In this document: positions 7,680 to 23,251 of the stretch, in pieces
How the letters are laid out: every line of letters begins with the position of its first letter
Position numbering within the stretch: the stretch's first letter is position 1
Virus record (IMG/VR): IMGVR_UViG_3300031746_000180
Coordinates: 1-23,251 of that record
Strand: one strand, 5' to 3'
From: a virus
DNA length: 23,251 nt
Position numbers and translations under genes: made by a program
The notes under the pieces: model-generated
The model's database searches: none
The model's input: the letters and a program-made list of their open reading frames with translations, nothing else
Told to the model about the DNA's origin: nothing

Positions 7680-7689
7680 GATTTTTTAC

Positions 7690-7768
7690 CCTTCAATTTT
7701 AAGGTTTATGTTTAGAGGTTCGTTTTGAACCTCATATATATTATACCACCATTTAAGATATTTTACAA
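7690..7768 (-). promoter_or_regulatory. Promoter with two-hairpin leader, copy 1
   Basis: Read leftward: -35 TTGTAA (7763-7768), 17-bp spacer, -10 TATAAT (7740-7745). A hairpin close to the transcript start follows (7715-7733, GAGGTTC arms), then CCTT...AAGG (7690-7704), in which CCTT can pair with the AAGG of the ribosome site of the 197-residue gene. The same three elements recur at 7936-8013 and 11587-11666. Confidence 0.8.
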
Positions 7769-7771
7769 GTG

Positions 7772-7927
7772 TTATTTTGTATCTCGTTTGTTTTCATTGG
7801 CTTCCATTTTGCAGTCAATGTTGTGATAATAGCAGGTAGAAAATATTTCGCAGTCTATGCATAACATATAAATCCTGGGATTTTTATGTATGCAATGTTC
7901 TCTTATATTTCGTATGTCGTAGTTCAT
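7772..7927 (-). CDS. Small Cys-rich protein (51 aa)
   Basis: This 51-codon gene begins MNYDIRNIREHCIHKNPRIY and contains four further Cys residues (MLCIDCEIFSTCYYHNIDC), a pattern fit for a small zinc-binding protein. It has its own promoter and conserved leader upstream, with AAGG before the ATG. Its last residues (EANENKRDTK) resemble the end of a gene remnant at 11670-11780 (EANENKQVTK), so gene end plus downstream promoter were copied as one block. Function unknown. Confidence 0.6.
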   Translation of the reverse strand: MNYDIRNIREHCIHKNPRIYMLCIDCEIFSTCYYHNIDCKMEANENKRDTK

Positions 7928-11578: not shown

Positions 11579-11586
11579 TTTTTTAC

Positions 11587-11666
11587 CCTTCAATTTTAAG
11601 GTTTGTTGTTTTGAGGTTCGTTTGAACCTCTATATATATTATAACACCATTTCAGATATTTTTCAA
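11587..11666 (-). promoter_or_regulatory. Promoter with two-hairpin leader, copy 3
   Basis: Read leftward: -35 TTGAAA (11661-11666), 17-bp spacer, -10 TATAAT (11638-11643), the best promoter in the window. Then comes a hairpin GAGGTTC/GAACCTC (11613-11630) and CCTT...AAGG (11587-11601) that can cover the ribosome site of the 54-residue gene. It probably drives the leftward early operon down to the ATPase region. Confidence 0.85.
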
Positions 11667-11669
11667 GTG

Positions 11670-11780
11670 TTATTTCGTAACTTGTTTGTTTTCATTGGCT
11701 TCTGACATTTCTTCAATCACCTGCTTAACATCATCAGTATACACCAATGCACAGACTAAACCTTCATTTCTGGAAAAAAA
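11670..11780 (-). pseudogene. C-terminal remnant of a small early gene
   Basis: A frame without a start codon reads FFSRNEGLVCALVYTDDVKQ, then VIEEMSEANENKQVTK and stops at 11670. Its composition is protein-like and its last residues match the end of the 51-residue gene (EANENKRDTK). The front of the gene is missing: a stop lies a few codons upstream, near the start of the 166-bp repeat block. It appears to be the tail of a gene cut off by rearrangement. Confidence 0.4.
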
Positions 11781-11826: not shown

Positions 11827-11992
11827 TTTTTGAGAGGTTGTGCCCCAGGGAGCAAGCTCCCTGGGCACGGATAAACCCCCTTAAAAAATTTCACCCGATT
11901 TGTTGATATTAATATATATCATGGGGTGAAAGAAAAGGGTTGGGTTTATTCCTTCTCAAAAAAAAATATTTAATTATTTTTTTTGTAGGAGT
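11827..11992 (+). repeat. 166-bp regulatory repeat, copy 1
   Basis: A 166-bp stretch is nearly identical to 14944-15109; differences are limited to a short segment near 11879-11902. It holds a strong palindrome CCAGGGAGCAAGCTCCCTGG (11845-11864), a second long dyad (11890-11930, TTCACCC to GGGTGAA with inner TGATAT/ATATCA), a T/A-rich run and the AGGAG ribosome site. The palindrome has no T-run, so it is not a normal terminator. Each copy stands directly before an initiator-like gene. It may be a shared promoter/operator or an origin element. With promoter copy 3 and the remnant it fills the gap 11579-12000. Confidence 0.85.
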
Positions 11993-12000
11993 GATGAACC

Positions 12001-13380
12001 ATGATAGTTCGAGAAGAAAAAAAATCACATTACACCATCATCGATAACTCGATTTTACAAAACAAAAATATTTCCAACCATGCGTTTTGTTTGTTGACTA
12101 GACTAATGAGTTTACCCCCAAAATGGAATTTAAACTTTTGGGACATTTTTAGATATTCTAATACCGGAAAAGGCACATGTAGAAAAGCGGTGAGTGAGTT
12201 GGTCTCTATGGGGTATTTTGAGCCTGTCCCATATCGAGATCAGAGAGGTCAGTACGCAGGACTACACTACAATATACACGAAAAACCATGCAATCCGCAA
12301 ACCGCTGATTTTGACACAGTTAATCCGCGTACCGATTTACGGTACACCGTGAAATGGTACGGTAACAAAAGTAATATATATATAAAAGAAAAACAAACAC
12401 TAGAACAAGAAGCTACATATAATGCCGTTGTTTGTTCGGATAAAAAAATTAGAGTACAGGAAACCATCACACCAGTACAGGAAACCATCACACCAGTACA
12501 GGAAACCATCACACTGGTGCAGGAAACCATCATACCAGTTCAGGTCACACCAGTGCAGGAAACACCAGTGAAGGTCGCACCTATACAGGTCGCACAGGAG
12601 CAAAAACCCATCACACAGGAACAAAAATCAGAAAACCAGAAACAATTAAACAGAACTTTTCTTAGAAATAAAATCCGGTTGGAGATGGATCGGAATTCTT
12701 TAAACAGAACTCGCACACCAGAAGTAAAAAACAGTTTTGGTATTGAGCAGGTCAGCAACTCATTAGATTCCATGATGGAAAGTTTAAAAAACAATGTTGC
12801 CGAACAACAAATACAACTTACATCAAATCAACCTATTACAAAGGAGTCTAAACCCATTGAGCACGTTCGGCAGGTCACACCGGTTAACGTCACGCCTAAA
12901 AAACCTATCACAGAAAAGGATTTAGAGGAACTGTCAAAACTTAGTAAAGAATCATCTTCAGACGTGAAAAAGTTGCTTTGGAGATTTCGGTTTGAGTCAT
13001 GTGAGTACATTCGGGCGCAGATCGAGTACTCAAACAAACACAGTAAAACAAATTTCCCTGGATATTTAAATGATTCATTGACAAAGGACTATGCAGGATT
13101 TAACAAAAAGCAGGCAGAAATAAAAGAAAAAGAAACAAAAAAAATTGAAGCCGAGAGAAAAAAGAAAGAAGAGGAGGCGAAAAATCATACAGTTATGGAG
13201 CAAATGAGAGAAAAAGCTCTTTCCATTTTTCGCCGTTTACCTGGAACTGTGCAGCAGGGAATAAAAAATATTTTTGATAAAAACGCTCTTATTCCGTACC
13301 ATGACGACGAGAGTTTTTTGGATTACCTGGAGTTTCAGTTCAAAAAATTCGGTGAGCAGTGGTTTTTTGTCACAGGTTAG
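12001..13380 (+). CDS. Winged-helix replication-initiator-like protein 1
   Basis: This 459-residue protein has AGGAG 10 nt before the ATG. Residues about 10-90 form a winged-helix domain (YTIIDNSILQNKNISNHAFC, LLTRLMSLPPKWNLNFWDIF, GKGTCRKAVSELVSMGYF), as in phage and plasmid replication initiators and DnaD-like proteins. Residues about 150-200 are a low-complexity Val-Gln-Glu-Thr-Pro linker built from 21-bp DNA repeats. A Lys/Glu coiled coil spans about 375-400. The C-terminal 60 residues make a helical domain. It shares its upstream repeat with a second initiator-like gene at 15116. The DNA-binding role is known of the fold; origin binding is inferred. Confidence 0.65.
   Translation: MIVREEKKSHYTIIDNSILQNKNISNHAFCLLTRLMSLPPKWNLNFWDIFRYSNTGKGTCRKAVSELVSMGYFEPVPYRDQRGQYAGLHYNIHEKPCNPQTADFDTVNPRTDLRYTVKWYGNKSNIYIKEKQTLEQEATYNAVVCSDKKIRVQETITPVQETITPVQETITLVQETIIPVQVTPVQETPVKVAPIQVAQEQKPITQEQKSENQKQLNRTFLRNKIRLEMDRNSLNRTRTPEVKNSFGIEQVSNSLDSMMESLKNNVAEQQIQLTSNQPITKESKPIEHVRQVTPVNVTPKKPITEKDLEELSKLSKESSSDVKKLLWRFRFESCEYIRAQIEYSNKHSKTNFPGYLNDSLTKDYAGFNKKQAEIKEKETKKIEAERKKKEEEAKNHTVMEQMREKALSIFRRLPGTVQQGIKNIFDKNALIPYHDDESFLDYLEFQFKKFGEQWFFVTG
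12454..12597 (+). repeat. Iteron-like direct repeats inside initiator gene 1
   Basis: Four 21-bp units beginning GTACAGGAAACCATC (or GTGCAGG) run from 12454 to 12537. They are followed by 15-bp shortened units (GTTCAGG, GTGCAGG, GTGAAGG, ATACAGG). They encode VQETITP-type peptide repeats. Direct repeats in the middle of an initiator gene recall the iterons in lambda O, so this may be an origin. Alternatively they may only be a flexible linker. Confidence 0.75.
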
Positions 13381-14474: not shown

Positions 14475-14816
14475 ATGTACGATTTAAAATGCCCGTACTG
14501 CAACCAAGAAATTGAAATTGACTATGACAAAAAACATAATGATGATGGTGAATCCGAGTTTCAAGACTGCGAAAACTGCGGCAAAACATTCGGCTTCATC
14601 ACCCATGTTACGTGTATTTACGTAACTCCTTGCCAAAACAATGGAGACCACAAACTAGTTGATATTTTTCGTTTTCCACCGGAACTATCGACACGCCCGC
14701 GCACGCGCGGAGTATACTCTATTTTTCCCGCTCTCACCAGACGCTCTTTCGACACGCCCGCGCACGCGCGGAGTATACTCCAAATTTTGTTTAAAAACAA
14801 AACACGTCGCAGTTAG
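14475..14816 (+). CDS. Zinc-ribbon-like protein with disrupted C-terminus
   Basis: The ATG follows AGGAGA. The first 70 residues are a paralogue of the leftward zinc-ribbon gene at 9223: CPYC near residue 7, CENC near residue 33, then TPCQNNGDHKLVDIFRFPPE. In the paralogue a third Cys pair follows. Here the frame runs instead into two GC-rich 32-bp repeats and encodes an Arg/Pro-rich tail (STRPRTRGVYSIFPALTRRS) that has no Cys. The tail is simply the translation of the inserted repeats, so this gene is probably truncated in function, with the original end lost. Confidence 0.6.
   Translation: MYDLKCPYCNQEIEIDYDKKHNDDGESEFQDCENCGKTFGFITHVTCIYVTPCQNNGDHKLVDIFRFPPELSTRPRTRGVYSIFPALTRRSFDTPAHARSILQILFKNKTRRS
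14688..14780 (-). CRISPR. CRISPR-like repeat-spacer-repeat (61-bp period)
   Basis: Two identical 32-bp copies (14688-14719 and 14749-14780) start 61 bp apart. Each has a GC-rich dyad CCGCGCACGCGCGG and ends in the palindrome GAGTATACTC. Period 61 equals type I-E repeat plus spacer. The sequence 14717-14749 (33 nt, including 3+1 nt shared with repeat edges) is the exact reverse complement of 16112-16144 in the downstream initiator gene. Thus 28 unique repeat bases plus 33 spacer bases make 61, as in I-E acquisition. Leftward, TTGTTT, 17 bp and TATACT at the outer repeat could be a promoter. No cas gene is near. Alternatives: a host dispersed palindromic repeat or a rearrangement. Confidence 0.5.
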
Positions 14817-14943: not shown

Positions 14944-15109
14944 TTTTTGAGAGGTTGTGCCCCAGGGAGCAAGCTCCCTGGGCACGGATAAACCCCACTA
15001 AAAAATTCACCCCGAGTTGTTGATATTAATATATATCATGGGGTGAAAGAAAAGGGTTGGGTTTATTCCTTCTCAAAAAAAAATATTTAATTATTTTTTT
15101 TGTAGGAGT
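14944..15109 (+). repeat. 166-bp regulatory repeat, copy 2
   Basis: Second copy of the block at 11827-11992, same length and order. It has the palindrome at 14957-14985, the long dyad at 15006-15047 (TTCACCCC/GGGGTGAA, here with 8-bp arms), the A- and T-runs and AGGAG. It fills most of the 14817-15115 gap. Weaker similarity seems to extend about 60 bp further upstream. A separate short hairpin CGGCTA/TAGCCG is at 14843-14860. Confidence 0.85.
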
Positions 15110-15115
15110 AGAAAA

Positions 15116-16438
15116 ATGGAACAAACCCTGAGAAAAATAGAAGAAAAAAGGAATAGTTTACTCACATACACGATGAGCGCAGAGTTAAAAAACGAATTTG
15201 GATGGTTGGGCGCGTCGATTATACATAATTTTCAGTACTGGCAAAAACAAAATATAGAGAACAAAAAAAATTTTCATGATGGGAAAACCTGGGTTTTCAC
15301 GACTATTCGAAAATTGGCCGAAAAATATTCAGAATCGTGGTTTGTAGTGTGGAGAAAAATAAACCAACTGAAAAAATATGGTATTTTAGAAACCGGAAAT
15401 TACAACCACTCTCCATGGAATCGCACCACATGGTACACAATAATTTCACCATACGTGATGGATTTTTACGAAATACCTTATCAAAAATCTGAACTAAAAA
15501 TTTTCGATCAAAAGGGAAAAAATCGGCCTGAAACCCGCGATACTATGCATTCTGCATCTATGCAGAATGGATTATGCGCCGATGCAGAATCATTAAACAT
15601 ATTAAAACAAAATATAAAAAAGGACATACAGACTCTAGAACTAGAAGCATCTCAGGAGAAAGGGTTTGTTTGTTCTGATTTAAAAATCAAAAATGAAAAA
15701 ATTCCAGTACAGGTCACACCAGAGATTAAAAAAAACATTTCATCAGAACCGGAAAAAATTTCTTCTGTTATTAAGACTCAAATGGAAATTATATTAAAAA
15801 AAGAAGCGCCTGAACCGATTAAAATTGCAACTTCAACGCATGAAAAGGAAACTCCAGAACCTGAACAAAATTTGCATCTTATTGATACTAAACAGGTTAA
15901 TGAGTTGGTGAGTGTTGCAAGAGTAAAAAACTTTTCACTCAGACAGTTAATTCTAAAAAACATTTTAATTCACTCATTTCAGTTGATCAAAAAAAATTTG
16001 GAACTTTCAAACAAAAAAGTTAAATTTGATTGGGGATACGCTAGTTATGCGTCAAAGGCGATTGACGGAGATTACGCGAGGCAAGCACGTGAAAAAGAGG
16101 AGCTGAAAAATAAAGAGCGTCTGGTGAGAGCGGGAAAAATAGAGAATGCAAGAAAAGAGGAGGTGCAAATAAAACAGAAAAATGAAGCTTTTGTAATTCA
16201 GAAACAACAGGAAAATCAGAGCCTTGAGGAGTTTTTCAATGGAATTCCTGAATATCGATTAGTTTACTATAGGGAAAAATTCCTTGCTCAGACGAATGCT
16301 TTTATGAGGGATTTTATCCAAGAAGTTGGTTGGACTTCTGATTATGTGATGTCATCTTTGCGGGAGTTTATAGACAAATGTTCCGAAAAAGAAACACAGG
16401 GAGCGTTATCAGAGACTATTGAGACTATATTTTTTTAA
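15116..16438 (+). CDS. Winged-helix replication-initiator-like protein 2
   Basis: This 440-residue protein has AGGAG 7 nt before the ATG. Residues about 25-120 match the winged-helix domain of many phage replication proteins: LGASIIHNFQYWQKQ, DGKTWVFTTIRKLAEKY, VWRKINQLKKYGILETGNY, then RTTWYTI. A linker follows with LELEAS...FVCSD and PVQVTPE segments also found in initiator 1, so the two genes share a mosaic middle. A Lys/Glu coiled coil near 325-370 includes NKERLVRAGKIENARKEE, whose DNA equals the CRISPR-like spacer. The end is a helical domain. Iteron-like DNA lies at 15548-15590. Its last 30 bases overlap the radical SAM gene on the other strand. Confidence 0.65.
   Translation: MEQTLRKIEEKRNSLLTYTMSAELKNEFGWLGASIIHNFQYWQKQNIENKKNFHDGKTWVFTTIRKLAEKYSESWFVVWRKINQLKKYGILETGNYNHSPWNRTTWYTIISPYVMDFYEIPYQKSELKIFDQKGKNRPETRDTMHSASMQNGLCADAESLNILKQNIKKDIQTLELEASQEKGFVCSDLKIKNEKIPVQVTPEIKKNISSEPEKISSVIKTQMEIILKKEAPEPIKIATSTHEKETPEPEQNLHLIDTKQVNELVSVARVKNFSLRQLILKNILIHSFQLIKKNLELSNKKVKFDWGYASYASKAIDGDYARQAREKEELKNKERLVRAGKIENARKEEVQIKQKNEAFVIQKQQENQSLEEFFNGIPEYRLVYYREKFLAQTNAFMRDFIQEVGWTSDYVMSSLREFIDKCSEKETQGALSETIETIFF
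15548..15590 (+). repeat. Iteron-like ATGCAGAAT sites inside initiator gene 2
   Basis: The sequence CATTCTGCAT (15548-15557) faces ATGCAGAATG (15560-15569) as a perfect dyad with 2 bp between. A third ATGCAGAAT stands at 15582-15590, 22 bp (two helical turns) after the second. A very AT-rich stretch of about 40 bp follows. This resembles a phage origin inside its initiator gene; inference. Confidence 0.5.
16112..16144 (+). other. Exact match to the CRISPR-like spacer (protospacer candidate)
   Basis: These 33 bases are the exact reverse complement of 14717-14749. Flanking bases on both sides do not match. The 5' flank on this strand is AAT, and the opposite end is followed by AAT on the same strand. 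If the element is type I-E, the 33-nt length is that of an acquired prespacer. Confidence 0.8.
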
Positions 16439-17134
16439 ATCATTTTTTATGTAATAATTTTTTCCTTTTAGCAGATTAATAGCTTGATTAATATAATATT
16501 TCCAGTCTATATTTTCTATTTCTTTGAAATGGTTGAGCTTTCCAAGTTTCCAAAAAGAAACATACTCCTTTAAATCTTCAATTACTTTTAACGCCTCTCC
16601 TGGATCAACAACTGGTTCCAAGGACACCCATGTATAAATCCCCAGGTTATGCGCAATTTTTACAGCTTCATAGCGAGAGACAATTGAGGGTGCTCCAGGT
16701 TCCCATTTGGCTCTCATTTCTTCGGATCTCATTATTATTGTGCTACCAAATTTCCAGTTATTTTTTAATAATATATCAAAATTACTAACAGCACGAAACC
16801 CGGCCTTTGTTAAAATTTGTGGTATCAATCTATATTTTTCACATATTAGTAATGCTTGTTTTGTTAAAAAAGCAGCCTCTTCAGATTGATAAGGATCGGT
16901 CATAAAAGAAAAAAGGATTTCTCTTTTGTCCCCTTGTAATTTTATAGCATCTTTTTCTAATTGTTTTAAAATTCTGGTTCTGGGATGTGGAGCATTAGAC
17001 CAATCGTCTAATGTTTTTCTAAAGATGGCCGGACAATAACAATATTTACATTTGTGGGAACAGCCCGTAAAAAGATTGCAGGCTAACGGAGAATACTCTA
17101 AAGCTTTACCTCTCGGTTCATAAATAACTGGCAT
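16409..17134 (-). CDS. Radical SAM protein (SPL/Rv2578c-like)
   Basis: This 241-residue protein carries the cluster motif C-x3-C-x2-C in GCSHKCKYCYCP (about residues 25-35). It is followed by FSFMTDPYQSEE, ILTKAGFRA and WVSLEPVVDPGEAL, which fits the family of small radical SAM proteins related to spore photoproduct lyase and Rv2578c. They bind a 4Fe-4S cluster and S-adenosylmethionine; the substrate of the phage members is not known to me, and DNA repair or base modification are possible. The ATG at 17134 has GAGG 7 nt upstream; an in-frame GTG at 17140 is the alternative. Its end overlaps the converging initiator gene by 30 nt. Confidence 0.8.
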   Translation of the reverse strand: MPVIYEPRGKALEYSPLACNLFTGCSHKCKYCYCPAIFRKTLDDWSNAPHPRTRILKQLEKDAIKLQGDKREILFSFMTDPYQSEEAAFLTKQALLICEKYRLIPQILTKAGFRAVSNFDILLKNNWKFGSTIIMRSEEMRAKWEPGAPSIVSRYEAVKIAHNLGIYTWVSLEPVVDPGEALKVIEDLKEYVSFWKLGKLNHFKEIENIDWKYYINQAINLLKGKNYYIKNDLKKYSLNSL

Positions 17135-17168
17135 TTTCACGCCTCATTTTTTAAAATGAAATTAAAAT

Positions 17169-17444: not shown

Positions 17445-17550
17445 CGCTACCCTACGTAATGTTCCGTCGGTACACGCCATCACGAACTCTACGCCTCTCA
17501 GTATGCCATCTCATTAATTATTACTCCATATTGTTCCGGTCATTTTTGCG

Positions 17551-17620
17551 ATCTCATAATTATTAATATAAATTGTTTTTTTGAGATGTTGAATTAAATA
17601 TTTGTTATAGAGATAACAAA
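17551..17620 (+). promoter_or_regulatory. Control region of the late operon (site C and a 20-bp operator)
   Basis: ATCTCA (17551-17556) and TGAGAT (17582-17587) resemble the arms of sites A and B. Next to them TTTGTTATAGAGATAACAAA (17601-17620) is a perfect dyad with 8-bp arms. A -10-like TATATT or TATTAT follows at 17628-17635, only about 5-7 nt before the first ATG (17640). No good -35 is seen, as expected for a promoter needing an activator. The region divides leftward genes from the rightward head operon. Confidence 0.5.
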
Positions 17621-17639
17621 TATGTTGTATATTATTGTT

Positions 17640-17819
17640 ATGAGACAAGAAATAGAAACCGAAAAGGATTATGAAGAAAATTTAACGCTCGCAATGAAAA
17701 AGTTAAATTCTTTGCCTGAAGAACAAAAAAACAAATACTTTTCACGCGCCAAAGTCGGATCTCCTGAGCTGCGTAGGGAAGTCGCTGCACTGATCTACAT
17801 GCGAGAATCAATTTTTTAA
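17640..17819 (+). CDS. First gene of the late operon (59 aa), hypothetical
   Basis: A 59-residue charged protein (MRQEIETEKDYEENLTLAMK, KLNSLPEEQKNKYFSRAKVG, ending YMRESIF), helical throughout. No SD precedes the ATG at 17640, and the -10-like box sits so close that transcription might begin at or near the start codon (leaderless). An in-frame ATG at 17622 lies just 1 nt beyond the operator dyad and is less likely. Function unknown; an early regulator or packaging accessory would fit the place. Confidence 0.5.
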   Translation: MRQEIETEKDYEENLTLAMKKLNSLPEEQKNKYFSRAKVGSPELRREVAALIYMRESIF

Positions 17820-17829
17820 GGGCGTGGAG

Positions 17830-18099
17830 ATGAAGCCGGACTACGTTATTAAAAACTTTTTGTCTGATATTTTAAATTTAACTCACGAGCCTAAAGGAAC
17901 AAAAGTATTTTTAAAAATAATCCGTAGACTGCCTTTATGCGCTCTTTATGATACAATGTCGCTCACAAAAGTTGATTGCAATGAGCTTGACAAAAGGAGC
18001 ATTCCTCACAATAGCGGGAAAATTTTTGTGTACCACGCTAAACACGTAGCCGAAAAGTTTAAAATTGACCTTGGATTCAAAAAAACTAGTTGTAAATAA
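17830..18099 (+). CDS. Hypothetical late-operon protein (89 aa)
   Basis: The ATG at 17830 has AAGGG 7 nt upstream; a GTG at 17824 would add two residues. The protein reads MKPDYVIKNFLSDILNLTHE, then VFLKIIRRLPLCALYDTMSL and a basic end. It has an alpha/beta look and no recognised motif. It lies between the first small gene and the small-terminase-like gene. Confidence 0.55.
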   Translation: MKPDYVIKNFLSDILNLTHEPKGTKVFLKIIRRLPLCALYDTMSLTKVDCNELDKRSIPHNSGKIFVYHAKHVAEKFKIDLGFKKTSCK

Positions 18100-18145
18100 C
18101 AATCATTAATGATAATATTTTAAAAAAGGGACAGAGGTAAAACGC

Positions 18146-18598
18146 ATGGAAACAGAGGAAAATAATACTCCAATAGACCAAAAATCCAGCACCGAAAAAG
18201 CACCGCTAACAGGTAAGGCACGAGCTTTAGCCAACTTACGACCCCCTTGGAAACCTGGATACTGCCCGAATCCGGTAGGCAGAAAAAAGGGATCGAAGAG
18301 TTTTAAAACAATTTGCAAAGAAATTTTAAAATGGGATTGCCCAGAAGAAATTTCCAAAAGCATAAAAAAAACCTTTAAAAACCAGGCACCAGAAAAATTG
18401 TCTAATGAAGTCGCGCTAGGAGTGCTGGCTGTTAAATATGCAATGGCAGGAAATGAAAAATTTTATGATCGACTATTCGGGAAAGTCGCGGATGTCATGG
18501 AAGAGTCTAATAAAATCAACATGGGCACAATCATATCTGAAATACATCGGGTAGCACTAAAAGCAATCAGTGAAGAAGAAGCCAATGAAACTTTTTAG
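18146..18598 (+). CDS. terS: DUF5681-family protein, probable small terminase
   Basis: This 150-residue protein has GAGG 8 nt before the ATG. Residues about 30-55 carry the DUF5681 signature NLRPPWKPGYCPNPVGRKKG (usual form: WKPGQSGNPKGRPKG), followed by helices. Genes of this family usually sit just upstream of large terminases. Here the end overlaps the large terminase start by 14 nt, which supports a role as DNA-recognition subunit of the packaging motor. Family membership is by motif; the terminase role is inferred from position. Confidence 0.7.
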   Translation: METEENNTPIDQKSSTEKAPLTGKARALANLRPPWKPGYCPNPVGRKKGSKSFKTICKEILKWDCPEEISKSIKKTFKNQAPEKLSNEVALGVLAVKYAMAGNEKFYDRLFGKVADVMEESNKINMGTIISEIHRVALKAISEEEANETF

Positions 18599-19814
18599 AT
18601 CGCAAGCCGTCTCTATCCTCAATTCTGATAAGTTCTTAAACTTCTGGATTGGTCCCGTTCGGAGTGGAAAAACTATAGCGTCAATTTTTCGCTGGATAAC
18701 CTTTGTATCCGAATACTCAGGAACAAACAGTTTAATCATGATAGGTAAAACGCAACAAACGTTATACCGTAATGTCATAAAAATAATAGAAGAATTGATA
18801 GGAAAAAACTGCTACTACTCATCTTACAAGAATGAGTTTAAAATATTTGATAAAATATGTTACACTATTGGGGCGAATGATTCCGCTGCTGAAGGAAAAA
18901 TACGGGGATTTTCAGCAGGCGGGGCTTATGGTGATGAGGTTGTACTGTGGCCTTACAACTGCTTCCAGATGTTGATTAGTAGACTCTCTGAAGCCGGTTC
19001 AAAAGCTTTTTTTACCAGCAATCCAGATAGTCCAATGCACCCGATAAAAGTCGAATATTTAGACAAAAAAGACTCTTTAGATATGTCACTATTTGAATTT
19101 ACATTTGACGAGAATGTTTTTATAGCACAGGATTTTAAAGAGCAGTTAAAAAAAATATACACTGGTCTATGGTATCGGCGTTTTATTCTTGGGCAATGGT
19201 GCCTTGCAGAAGGAGCTATAATTGATTTTTTTGATGAAGAGGAGCATACTCTTACGAAATGTCCGAAGGCAAAATACTATAATCTTGCAATAGACTACGG
19301 AGCCAATAACCCTTTTTGTGCTTTACTTATAGGACATAACAATGAGACGCGGCCAAAAGTCTGGCCGCAACACGAGTTTTATCATGACGGAAAACTTTCA
19401 GGTACGCGCACTAATAGCGAATATGCCGATATGTTAGAAAGGTTCTGTAAATCTAATCTAGGTGAAAACTGGCGAAATTATGTAAATAAAACCATTATCG
19501 ACCCTTCAGCAGAATCTTTTCAAATAGAACTGGAAGGAAAATATTTTCCAGGTGTAACGCATGCAAATAATGCGGTTTTAGATGGAATTCTTTTCACCTG
19601 TTCGCTATTAAAATCAGGAGTTTTGGCTTTTTCCAATACCTGCACTAACCTGATAAAAGAAACTTACTCATACACCTGGGATGCTAACGCGCAAAAACAT
19701 GGTGTTGACGCACCTGTTAAGGTCAATGACCACGTTATTGATGCACTTCGATACGGAGTATATACAGAACTTGGCGGTTCGAACGTTGATTTAATATCAT
19801 TAACCAAATGGTAA
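18585..19814 (+). CDS. terL: Terminase large subunit
   Basis: A packaging ATPase-nuclease of 409 residues. Motifs in order: Walker A-like GPVRSGKT near residue 24, Walker B region AGGAYGDEVVL near 115 (Asp-Glu pair), coupling motif FFTSNPDSP near 143, then the RNase H-like nuclease residues in LAIDYGANNPF, in TIIDPSAESF and in DHVIDALRYG. All key acidic residues seem present. I chose ATG at 18585 over a GTG at 18570; both lie inside the end of the small subunit gene. It cuts and pumps phage DNA into the prohead through the portal encoded next. Confidence 0.93.
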   Translation: MKLFRSQAVSILNSDKFLNFWIGPVRSGKTIASIFRWITFVSEYSGTNSLIMIGKTQQTLYRNVIKIIEELIGKNCYYSSYKNEFKIFDKICYTIGANDSAAEGKIRGFSAGGAYGDEVVLWPYNCFQMLISRLSEAGSKAFFTSNPDSPMHPIKVEYLDKKDSLDMSLFEFTFDENVFIAQDFKEQLKKIYTGLWYRRFILGQWCLAEGAIIDFFDEEEHTLTKCPKAKYYNLAIDYGANNPFCALLIGHNNETRPKVWPQHEFYHDGKLSGTRTNSEYADMLERFCKSNLGENWRNYVNKTIIDPSAESFQIELEGKYFPGVTHANNAVLDGILFTCSLLKSGVLAFSNTCTNLIKETYSYTWDANAQKHGVDAPVKVNDHVIDALRYGVYTELGGSNVDLISLTKW

Positions 19815-19827
19815 AAGGTAAAATTTT

Positions 19828-21171
19828 ATGAATGAAAAAAGAGATGGCTGGGGTAATATTTTTACTGGCATGGGTAATTTAAACAGAGATAAAAAAATGT
19901 CTACTGTTTACGGCACTTGTAATAGACTATCACAACAGGAATTGACGGAAATATTTAGAGGTGACGGACTTGGCAATAGAATTATTACTGTACCTGTTGG
20001 TGATATGCTGAGGGAATGGTTTACGGTAACTGGTGACACCGGTGGCGAGGTTAACATGAGACTCGATGAGCTATCGGCAAAAACAATTTTTGACGAAGCG
20101 TTAATGTGGGATCGTCTTTACGGAGGTTCAGTTATTTTAATGTTTATTGATGACGGACAGGAACTAGATCAACCTGTGAACGAGGAACAAATCATTGATG
20201 TTATGGGCTTCCAGGTCTATGAACGATATTATGTTACGTGGTCTACTTCAGATTTATATCAAAATAGAATTGATCCCAATTATGGCAATCCTGAGTTTTA
20301 TAACGTCATGAACATTTCAACGGGGGTAACGTTTCGAGTTCATGAGTCTCGTGTAATGCGTTTTAATGGGGAATTGGTGCCGGTATTGAGCAGGCAAGAA
20401 AATCAGGGTTGGGGGGATTCGGTAATAATAAAAATATATGATCGGCTTCGGGGGCTTGCTGAGGGTTATGATGGACTTGAGCACATAGTAACGGATTTTG
20501 TCACCAACATACTAAAGGTAAAAAATTTAGATTCATTAATGGCGACAGCCGGCGGAACTGAAAAGGTAATAAATAGATTGCAAATGATTGATATGACACG
20601 CCATATAATGAATACCATGATACTTGATGATGGTGAAGTTTTAGAGCGCATAGTATCCGCAGGAGCGACTGGGGTAGCTGACATTTTGATACATTTGATA
20701 GATGTTTTAGTTGCGGTGTCCGGTATACCAAAAGTCAAGTTATTCGGTGAACAGTCTCAGGGATTAGGCAGTGAGGCGAGCGGGAATATTAGAATGTACT
20801 ATGATGAAATAGCTTCAATGCAGTTGAAAAAACTTCAAAAACCTTTAGAAAAACTTGTCCGGTATATAATAAAATCGAAAAACATGGATGAAGAAATTGA
20901 TGATTGGACTATAGAGTTTAATCCTCTATGGCAACCGTCGGAATCCGAAGAAGCCAATACAAAAAAAATTATAGCGGAGACGGATAATATTTATTATAAC
21001 ATGGGATTGCCTGAACAGCTAATTTTTGCAACCAGGTTTACAGAAGCCGCAACCGCGTCGATAAAGGTACCTGCGGAACTGATTGAATATTATAAAAAAA
21101 CTTCTGTGGCAGTCAATAAAGGGATTGCGCCGAAAGAATTAGAAGAGGTTGAGCCTAAAGAGGGAGCTTAA
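19828..21171 (+). CDS. DUF1073-family portal protein
   Basis: This 447-residue protein has AAAGGT about 9 nt before the ATG. It matches the DUF1073 portal family: an early LTEIFRGDGLGNRIITVPVG, LWDRLYGG-type segment (EALMWDRLYGGSVILMFID), HESRVMRFNG, and the highly typical SGIPKVKLFGEQSQGLGSEA followed by IRMYYDEIASMQ. It forms the dodecameric ring at one capsid vertex. It is placed as expected between large terminase and the Mu F-like head protein. The end is acidic (PKELEEVEPKEGA). Confidence 0.92.
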   Translation: MNEKRDGWGNIFTGMGNLNRDKKMSTVYGTCNRLSQQELTEIFRGDGLGNRIITVPVGDMLREWFTVTGDTGGEVNMRLDELSAKTIFDEALMWDRLYGGSVILMFIDDGQELDQPVNEEQIIDVMGFQVYERYYVTWSTSDLYQNRIDPNYGNPEFYNVMNISTGVTFRVHESRVMRFNGELVPVLSRQENQGWGDSVIIKIYDRLRGLAEGYDGLEHIVTDFVTNILKVKNLDSLMATAGGTEKVINRLQMIDMTRHIMNTMILDDGEVLERIVSAGATGVADILIHLIDVLVAVSGIPKVKLFGEQSQGLGSEASGNIRMYYDEIASMQLKKLQKPLEKLVRYIIKSKNMDEEIDDWTIEFNPLWQPSESEEANTKKIIAETDNIYYNMGLPEQLIFATRFTEAATASIKVPAELIEYYKKTSVAVNKGIAPKELEEVEPKEGA

Positions 21172-21175
21172 TTTT

Positions 21176-22084
21176 ATGGTTCATATTTTTACCTTTCTTA
21201 AGGCACTGGGAAAAAGCAAGATGCGTATTCGTGCCATGTCTAAAAAGCGACCCCCTAAAATGAAGTATCCTACAAAACTTGAAAATATTTATGTGGAGTA
21301 TTATAAAAGTTTAGTCAGGTCATGGAAAGAAATCTATTTAGAAACAATCGATCAAAAATTGAGCGATATTCATTTCCAGTTTACGGGTAAAGTGGATTCG
21401 TGGCAAAGCGATCTGGAATCTATCGTAAACGTGTTTACCTTACAAGCGAATACTGCAACATTGTCGGTTATTCCAGCAGCAAAGGAAATGGCTGATCTGG
21501 TTTCTAAATTTAACTATTTAGAATTCCAAAGAACAGTTCAAAAGGTGATTGGTATACCGGTTTATTCTGCGCCTGCTGCCATGGAAAAATATCTCAGCAT
21601 TTTTACTGCGCAGAACGTTTCATTGGTGACCAACCTGAGTCAATCCCTGGAAGGTGAAATAAATCGAGTGGTTCAACGTGGGTTGCAATACGGAAAAAGT
21701 GTAAAGGAGATCAAAAAAACTTTATTAGGCACTGACATTGATCAGGGTGTTTTTAACAGAATAGAGACGCGCGCGGAATTAATTGCACGTGATCAGGTCG
21801 GTAAACTCAATGGGCAAATGACTAAAATCAGACAGGAAGATCTAGGAATTGATCGGTATATATGGCGTACTGCTATGGATGAGCGAGTTAGAGACTCTCA
21901 TGAGGTATTACAAGGAATGTTATGCCAGTGGAATGATGGCTCGATTTACTCACAGAATGACGGGGAAACCTGGGATGATAGGGATTCCATCGGCGCGTAT
22001 GTCGGTGAGCCTGGGGAGGATTATCAATGCAGGTGTTACGCGGAGCCGTATTTTAAAAACCTTTTGGAAGAGGAAACAGAATGA
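21176..22084 (+). CDS. Phage Mu F-like minor head protein
   Basis: The predicted protein has 302 residues. I chose the ATG at 21176 (AGGGAG 9 nt upstream) over one at 21149 inside the portal gene. The first 40 residues are basic. The conserved head-morphogenesis domain lies at the end: ARDQVGKLNGQMTK, then GIDRYIWRTAMDERVRDSHE and PGEDYQCRCYAEP. Members are minor capsid proteins linked to the portal, needed for head assembly and sometimes injected with DNA. The stop overlaps the next ATG (ATGA). Confidence 0.9.
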   Translation: MVHIFTFLKALGKSKMRIRAMSKKRPPKMKYPTKLENIYVEYYKSLVRSWKEIYLETIDQKLSDIHFQFTGKVDSWQSDLESIVNVFTLQANTATLSVIPAAKEMADLVSKFNYLEFQRTVQKVIGIPVYSAPAAMEKYLSIFTAQNVSLVTNLSQSLEGEINRVVQRGLQYGKSVKEIKKTLLGTDIDQGVFNRIETRAELIARDQVGKLNGQMTKIRQEDLGIDRYIWRTAMDERVRDSHEVLQGMLCQWNDGSIYSQNDGETWDDRDSIGAYVGEPGEDYQCRCYAEPYFKNLLEEETE

Positions 22085-22257
22085 ATGAAAATGTTAAAAA
22101 ATCTATATGTAATGCGTCGATTAATTTTCATGAAGTTTTAAAATTTAAATTTGAAGAAGAACCCTTTTTTACTGGCAGAATTGTTTATACGATTGATTGC
22201 AAAGACGGCGGTATAGGTAGTTATGAAGCGTTCATACAAAGAAAAATAAATAAATAG
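22081..22257 (+). CDS. Small hypothetical protein (58 aa)
   Basis: It starts at an ATG that overlaps the head-protein stop as ATGA, so translation is coupled. It reads MNENVKKSICNASINFHEVL, KFKFEEEPFFTGRIVYTIDC and ends FIQRKINK. A mixed beta pattern, no recognised motif. It directly precedes the promoter of the CRISPR-repeat RNA (the -35 begins 2 nt after its stop). In phages carrying RNA anti-CRISPRs, neighbours may be anti-CRISPR genes, but nothing in this sequence shows that here. Confidence 0.6.
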   Translation: MNENVKKSICNASINFHEVLKFKFEEEPFFTGRIVYTIDCKDGGIGSYEAFIQRKINK

Positions 22258-22258
22258 T

Positions 22259-22286
22259 TTGACTTTTATATTTTTTATGTTATATT
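22259..22286 (+). promoter_or_regulatory. Promoter of the CRISPR-repeat RNA
   Basis: TTGACT (22259-22264), 16-bp AT-rich spacer, TATATT (22281-22286). Expected transcript start is about 22293. An own promoter inside a head operon, directly after a stop codon, implies that the following RNA is made separately. Confidence 0.75.
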
Positions 22287-22319
22287 AATATTGTGTAGGA
22301 TGCGAAAAGTCTAGTGATG

Positions 22320-22348
22320 TAGTTCCCCGCAAACGCGGGGATGAAGCG
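22320..22348 (+). CRISPR. Solitary type I-E-like CRISPR repeat unit
   Basis: These 29 nt have the full I-E layout: short 5' flank TAGTT, 6-bp stem CCCCGC/GCGGGG with 4-nt loop AAAC, and an 8-nt 3' handle ATGAAGCG. By my alignment 22 of 29 positions equal the E. coli I-E repeat, with loop excluded nearly all; the handle differs at two positions from ATAAACCG. There is no second copy and no spacer. Cas6e (Cse3) cuts such repeats just after the stem, leaving the 8-nt handle. Confidence 0.75.
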
Positions 22349-22355
22349 ATTTAAG

Positions 22356-22391
22356 CCCTACTCAGGCGATGAGCTTGAGTGGGGTTTTTTT
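22356..22391 (+). terminator. Intrinsic terminator of the CRISPR-repeat RNA
   Basis: CCCTACTCAGGC (22356-22367) pairs with GCTTGAGTGGGG (22373-22384), 12 pairs with G-U pairs, loop GATGA, then seven T (22385-22391). Transcription of the head operon must pass it, or the DUF2213 gene needs read-through. Confidence 0.9.
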
Positions 22392-22411
22392 ATTTTGGGG
22401 GATATTTTTAC

Positions 22412-23251
22412 ATGGATGTAAAAACAATTAGCGTTACTCATGTAGATTTCGTTAAGAAAAAAATAGGCAGTTTTGCAAAAACCTCTGAGGGATATTTAAA
22501 GGGCAGTGGAGCTATTGCCAAGGTTGGCGTTTTAAAATATACCCTTACCGATGGAACTACAATCAACGAACTAGTCCCAGAAGAAACATTGTTTGAACCT
22601 CAAAGCTTGGAAACTGTTCATTTAAAGCCAATTACAAATATGCACCCGCAGGAAAAACGCGTAGATTGCAACAATGCCAAGGAGAAAAAAATCGGTTGGG
22701 TTGGTGAACAGACAAAAAAAATAGATAGTTATTTAGTGGCTAATATGCTCATTACGGATGCCGATGCAATCAATGCGGTTAATCTGGGTAGACAAGAGCT
22801 GTCACCTGGATATACATGTGATTTGGTGATGCAACCCGGTGAATACAATGGCGTGAAATATGACGCGGTACAAACCAACCGTAGGTACAATCATGTTGCT
22901 ATGTGTGATCGAGCGCGTGGGGGGGATGATCTGAGAATAAATTTAGATTCTGAATTTGATGGATACGAAACAAATGTAAATGATAAAATATTTAATCGAA
23001 AGGAAACTTTTATTATGGCACTTTTTAAAATCGATGGTGTTGATTATGAAATTTGTCCTCAAGCGGTGAATTTTATTACAAAGCTTGAAGAAAATTTAAA
23101 GTCAAAAGTTGACGAATGCGATAAAACGGCTGCTTTGCTCGATGCTGCAAAGCAAAAAATAACAGACCTGGAAAAAAGAGACACAACCGCTGAAATAGCT
23201 ACAGGGGTAAAAAATAGAATAGCTCTTTTAAACAGTGCAGCAAAAATTTTA
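22412..23251 (+). CDS. DUF2213 prohead protease fused to scaffold (3' end cut)
   Basis: The ATG at 22412 follows GGGGGA by 9 nt and the frame is open through 280 codons to the window end. Residues 1-185 fit DUF2213: SEGYLKGSGAIAKVGVLKYT, the ITNMHPQEKRV turn, GRQELSPGYTCDLVMQPGEY, NGVKYDAVQTNRRYNHVAMC and RARGGDDLRINLD. The family is regarded as a capsid maturation protease. From residue about 201 a scaffold-like part begins with a new Met, then a coiled coil (ITKLEENLKSKVDECDKTAA). An SD (AAAGGA) 10 nt before that in-frame ATG at 23015 could give a separate scaffold. It follows the terminator after 20 nt. Confidence 0.88.
   Translation, partial: MDVKTISVTHVDFVKKKIGSFAKTSEGYLKGSGAIAKVGVLKYTLTDGTTINELVPEETLFEPQSLETVHLKPITNMHPQEKRVDCNNAKEKKIGWVGEQTKKIDSYLVANMLITDADAINAVNLGRQELSPGYTCDLVMQPGEYNGVKYDAVQTNRRYNHVAMCDRARGGDDLRINLDSEFDGYETNVNDKIFNRKETFIMALFKIDGVDYEICPQAVNFITKLEENLKSKVDECDKTAALLDAAKQKITDLEKRDTTAEIATGVKNRIALLNSAAKIL

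Follow-up and report, generated by a model that had tools for sequence, protein, structure and literature searches.

The locus lies in the head-gene region of a tailed phage, a mobile element, within the 23,251-nt stretch of viral DNA analyzed here (the window), where the genes follow in the order terminase, portal, Mu-F-like head gene, 58-aa ORF, and DUF2213 protease gene (Table 1). The feature of interest is a short noncoding cassette in the intergenic space between the end of the 58-aa ORF (22257) and the protease start (22412). The 58-aa ORF matched nothing in Pfam, NCBIfam, PHROGs, or PADLOC; a nearby acr gene is enriched with solitary repeat units but is not required. The serine recombinase gave no clue to the host.

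Table 1. Coordinates of the cassette, its neighboring genes, and the integration-scar candidate
Feature	Coordinates	Strand	Remarks
Portal	19828–21171	+	Upstream of cassette
Mu-F-like head morphogenesis gene	21149–22084	+	Upstream of cassette
58-aa ORF	22081–22257	+	Directly upstream of cassette; no family match
Sigma-70-like promoter	22259–22286	+	TTGACT-16-TATATT, TG before −10; 10/12 consensus matches; not significant alone
Predicted 5′ leader of RNA	22293–22319	+	About 27 nt, without CRISPR handle; start near 22293 inferred from promoter position
Solitary type I-E-like CRISPR repeat	22320–22348	+	29 nt; stem 22324–22330/22335–22341, loop AAAC, handle ATGAAGCG from 22341
Intrinsic terminator	22353–22391	+	15-pair stem, then seven T; no terminator-like site in the 5.7 kb scanned (17500–23251) is stronger
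Head maturation protease gene (DUF2213)	22412–23251	+	Downstream; cut by window end
Replication-initiation genes	12001–13380 and 15116–16438		Each preceded by a copy of the 166-nt leader
Probable off-target I-E integration scar	14689–14778	−	Two identical 29-nt units, 14689–14717 and 14750–14778, 61 nt apart
33-nt insert ("spacer")	14717–14749	−	Perfect inverted copy of 16112–16144
Insert source (protospacer)	16112–16144	+	Inside second replication-initiation gene, 15116–16438

We found that 22259–22391 is a real feature with the anatomy ascribed to it in an earlier note on this DNA: a −35/−10 pair, a full 29-nt I-E-like repeat with an AAAC loop, and a terminator with seven T are all present. 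The −35 (22259–22264) and −10 (22281–22286) elements are separated by a 16-nt gap, with TG one base ahead of the −10. The idea that the unit has its own promoter within the head operon held for the site itself, which sits <250 bp upstream of the repeat, but not for its significance taken alone, because such 10/12 sites are as frequent as in shuffled sequence (20 found versus 19 expected), that is, at chance level.

The 29-mer at 22320–22348 is TAGTTCCCCGCAAACGCGGGGATGAAGCG. Its hairpin is as described earlier, but the stem folds as seven pairs (TCCCCGC/GCGGGGA) rather than as CCCCGC/GCGGGG, and its dot-bracket structure is the same as that of the E. coli I-E repeat. Folding also revised the dimensions given for the 3′ part: the spacing between the repeat and the terminator stem is 4 nt instead of 7, and this stem (22353–22387) has 15 pairs, not 12, before it runs into TTTTTTT at 22385–22391. 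Folding of the transcript region gives −41 kcal/mol (z = −5.4). The core pattern TTCCCCGCNNNNGCGGGGATGAA matched once in the whole window even when three mismatches were allowed, and not at all in 100 dinucleotide shuffles. The earlier note had reported no second repeat, cas gene, or ORF, and our searches agree: there is no full or partial second repeat within 100 bp of the lone repeat, whose only direct repeat shared with its flanks is 8 nt long (ATGAAGCG); a Pfam scan of the 29 window ORFs yielded no Cas families; and no ORF lies inside 22259–22391.

Repeats of genuine arrays contain a 24-nt core of the lone repeat, GTTCCCCGCAAACGCGGGGATGAA, without any mismatch. An exact scan of genome contigs with a 23-nt core returned five stretches, genuine I-E arrays among them; the core-bearing I-E arrays in these contigs belong to Neomarinimicrobiota, Oryzibacter, and other proteobacteria, and GTGTTCCCCGCAAACGCGGGGATGAACCG is present in 15 copies in the array of a Neomarinimicrobiota metagenome-assembled genome and in 8 copies in a large Oryzibacter array. 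Because several phyla are represented among the cellular arrays with this core, it names no host. Over its full length, the repeat is at best 26/29 identical to a cellular array; the best full-length viral match, the repeat TCGTTCCCCGCAAACGCGGGGATGAACCG on a viral contig, is 27/29. Relative to the nearest arrays, the lone repeat differs at bases 1, 2, and 27 (the handle C). By blastn-short, 24 of 24 nt are identical (48.1 bits), with a coverage of 24/29 (83%) of the repeats compared here. SRUFinder accepts a solitary repeat at ≥90% identity over ≥90% of a known repeat and ≥41.1 bits (PMC10651486); our score of 48.1 lies above the bit threshold and our 83% coverage below the 90% line, both being relative to the repeats fetched here, not to the 17,823-repeat library. 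Five viral contigs carry one common type of I-E array (CCGTTCCCCGCGAACGCGGGGATGAACCG), each with between three and six exact matches to the core; one copy ends in CCA.

The position of the cassette, within the late operon and ahead of the protease gene, with a terminator directly after the repeat, would also suit an ordinary structured leader or attenuator of the head operon that merely resembles an I-E repeat. We regard this as highly improbable: the match goes beyond the stem to span the loop and flanks (GTT...ATGAA), with zero such matches expected in shuffles, no Rfam family matched the cassette, and relatives do not have room for such a unit at this place. In the closest relative found (portal 41%, Mu-F 34%, and protease 37% identity), the order is portal, Mu-F, small ORF, and protease, with a gap of 2 nt versus 154 nt in the window; the corresponding gap is 4 nt in MW202455 and 59 nt in another relative, both of which share this arrangement of head genes. 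In relatives, the place of the 58-aa ORF is taken by a small ORF that differs from it in sequence. Because these three distant relatives keep the head-gene order without the cassette, and because the cassette has its own promoter-like site and terminator, it looks from this comparison like a moron, an extra RNA gene inserted between late genes.

Searches of viral contigs with the portal, terminase, protease, and second-replication-gene proteins returned distant relatives only (29 to 45% identity for portal and terminase), a DNA search with 22089–22420 found no match in phage records, and the whole anatomy, an I-E repeat followed by T6, recurred in none of the viral contigs. These searches thus brought up no close relative with the cassette, and hence no evidence of its conservation, which counts against the Racr reading given below.

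Location in an operon would also be expected of a Cas-dependent regulator or an RNA processing site, where host Cas6e cuts the late transcript or where the unit guides repression, and regulatory CRISPR-repeat-like sequences exist (PMC10651486). We consider either role very unlikely here. With its own promoter-like site and terminator, the unit need not be on the operon transcript, and type I-E is not known to use a tracrRNA-like guide.

Virus-borne mini-CRISPR arrays (PMC6858448) are like the cassette in that host-like repeats are carried by a virus without cas genes, and many viral contigs with similar repeats have at least two, at a spacing of 61 nt. The lone repeat could accordingly be a remnant or seed of such an array, left over or awaiting a spacer, rather than a decoy. 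This appears unlikely: unlike those arrays, the cassette has no spacer, its repeat stands alone, the hairpin is intact, and the terminator begins so close downstream that there is no room for an old spacer. A point in favor of an array origin is that the last repeats of arrays can carry this handle change as well. Of the 454 I-E-like repeat copies in the fetched loci, 445 have CC at positions 27 and 28 (CCG, CCA, CCC, or CCT) and 9 do not; the GCG variant occurs at three loci only. One of these, L068 (minus strand, offset 1392), is a further solitary I-E-like repeat from a virus; it too has the ATGAAGCG handle, and a 10-pair hairpin directly follows it. L067 and L069 share a single GCG copy, the terminal repeat of a three-repeat viral mini-array, with the handle ATAAAGCG. 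Neither in a solitary repeat nor in a terminal array repeat is the handle required to start a crRNA. Because the handle is dispensable in both settings and RacrIF1 tolerates changes to it, we infer that the deviation fits a decoy and is no argument against one.

We think it probable, from the sequence features described above, that the cassette is an RNA-only moron making a candidate type I-E Racr (RNA anti-CRISPR). Racrs of type I-E are already known and tested, and the cassette is a further candidate, not a new kind. Like it, RacrIE1 and RacrIE2 (Camara-Wilpert et al. 2023, PMC10651486) are mobile-element-encoded solitary type I-E repeat units, and both of these I-E examples were active, inhibiting a P. 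aeruginosa I-E system when expressed. The cassette differs from them in its own terminator, its moron site in the head operon, and its changed handle base. RacrIF1, from a Thiocystis violascens prophage (PMC10651486), is likewise a solitary repeat RNA, made from its own promoter where the cassette has a promoter-like site. There, the product upstream of the Cas6 cut, which includes the stem, is the inhibitor, and the handle is largely dispensable, since handle changes still allow substantial inhibition (PMC10651486); we assume the same for the cassette by analogy. RacrIF1 differs in being type I-F and in its bound product of 70 to 76 nt, versus a predicted 48 nt for the cassette.

Built on this analogy with RacrIF1, the proposed mechanism begins with transcription of the cassette into an RNA some 99 nt long. 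Cas6e of the host would bind the repeat hairpin and cut at the hairpin's 3′ base, after 22340, retaining a 48-nt product that would consist of the 27-nt leader and the stem and have no 5′ handle. Cas7 may polymerize along the leader; Cas5 and Cas8 (Cse1) would not be recruited because there is no handle. Cas6e, and perhaps Cas7, would thereby be drawn off genuine crRNAs. As the leader is shorter than in RacrIF1, capture of Cas6e may matter more than capture of Cas7. The altered handle would depart on the 3′ product, where it is expected to be dispensable; if the cassette is a Racr, the analogy argues that it acts through the stem product upstream of the cut rather than through the handle product.

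Several observations weigh against the Racr reading: the best identities of 26/29 (cellular) and 27/29 (viral), the 83% coverage, the promoter score at chance, and a predicted product shorter than those of RacrIF1. In addition, without readthrough the terminator would impede transcription of the head genes that follow; antitermination past it in the late operon is likely.

Other repeats are also present in the window. A 166-nt leader, 96% identical between its copies (11827–11992 and 14944–15109), lies ahead of two different replication-initiation genes; a GC-rich hairpin lies within it (in the second copy, CCCAGGGAGC/GCTCCCTGGG), and the leader could serve as a common control region or as a point of recombination. 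A 123-nt repeat (7682–7804 and 11580–11702; 80% identical) lies partly in noncoding DNA, and 21-nt tandem repeats in the first replication gene (12453–12544) encode repeated VQETITP motifs. A phage-borne radical SAM protein encoded at 16409–17140 on the minus strand is weakly like PA0069 and mobile-pair families.

A consensus scan exposed a further pair of 29-nt units, CGACACGCCCGCGCACGCGCGGAGTATAC, flanking an insert that matches the phage's own genome at 32/32 (33/33) positions, with the source 1.4 kb away. We scored all 29-mers of the window against six I-E repeats, made up of the lone repeat and real ones; on the minus strand, this unit ranks second in similarity, directly behind the lone repeat, matching at 20/29 positions in exact register. 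During E. coli I-E acquisition, a 33-bp protospacer is inserted, its first base is counted as the last of the 29-bp repeat, and spacers are mostly 32 bp long (PMC10011333). Read as 28 + 33 or as 29 + 32, the unit and insert here sum to 61 bp, which is I-E integration geometry. An I-F geometry would give 60. The two flanks of the source are AAT and TTC; neither is the AAG PAM, which counts against integration. Read on the minus strand, the base before the insert is G, and AAT stands before the source. AAG is usual in I-E acquisition but not obligatory, and a change from AAG to AAT at the source (16109–16111) after acquisition is possible.

Off-target Cas1-Cas2 integration outside arrays was reported in E. 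coli by Nivala et al. (2018), as cited in PMC11788318 and PMC9456107. According to those citing accounts, the resulting neo-CRISPR loci are like the structure here in having a spacer-sized insert and a duplicated repeat-like target outside an array, and they arose in E. coli overexpressing Cas1-Cas2, whereas here the site is in a phage genome and the insert comes from the phage itself. From this precedent and the geometry and repeat-like unit described above, 14689–14778 is probably an off-target scar written into the phage by a host I-E Cas1-Cas2. A templated replication error could in principle also create an inverted insert, but its exact I-E size would then be coincidence. An assembly chimera is possible as well, given that the 166-nt leader is repeated nearby.

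We rejected three other candidates in this region. A serine-recombinase site was discounted because recombinases make no templated inverted insert flanked by a duplication. An antiviral mini-array does not fit the non-I-E handle and the perfect self-match of the insert; true viral mini-arrays avoid matches to their carrier's own genome (PMC6858448). An IHF-like site at 14652–14664, with one mismatch, is of a type too common to count. Exact copies of the 14689 unit were absent from the viral contigs, as were DNA relatives of the region from phages and plasmids.

The scar candidate is indirect evidence, separate from the cassette, that the phage meets an active I-E system. Of the interpretation given earlier, the part that sees the unit as a solitary mimic of an I-E repeat, with a promoter-like site and terminator of its own, is supported. 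The 23-nt core also occurs in real I-E arrays, the cassette is extra at a spot that is tight in relatives, and the phage carries this apparent scar. More tentatively, and at somewhat less than an even chance, one genome may record both sides of the contest: an RNA decoy gene and a fixed scar, with a spacer from the phage's own replication gene at the next most repeat-like site, whose source may have lost its PAM.

The cassette is a compact I-E Racr candidate with a complete gene anatomy of promoter-like site, leader, repeat, terminator, and moron position. Its handle points to a possible decay of handle bases where a repeat is solitary, since only the upstream stem product would be needed. If confirmed, the scar would mean that the adaptation machinery of a host can insert spacers into the genomes of phages themselves, and such scars would offer a readout of the CRISPR type met by a phage without knowledge of its host.
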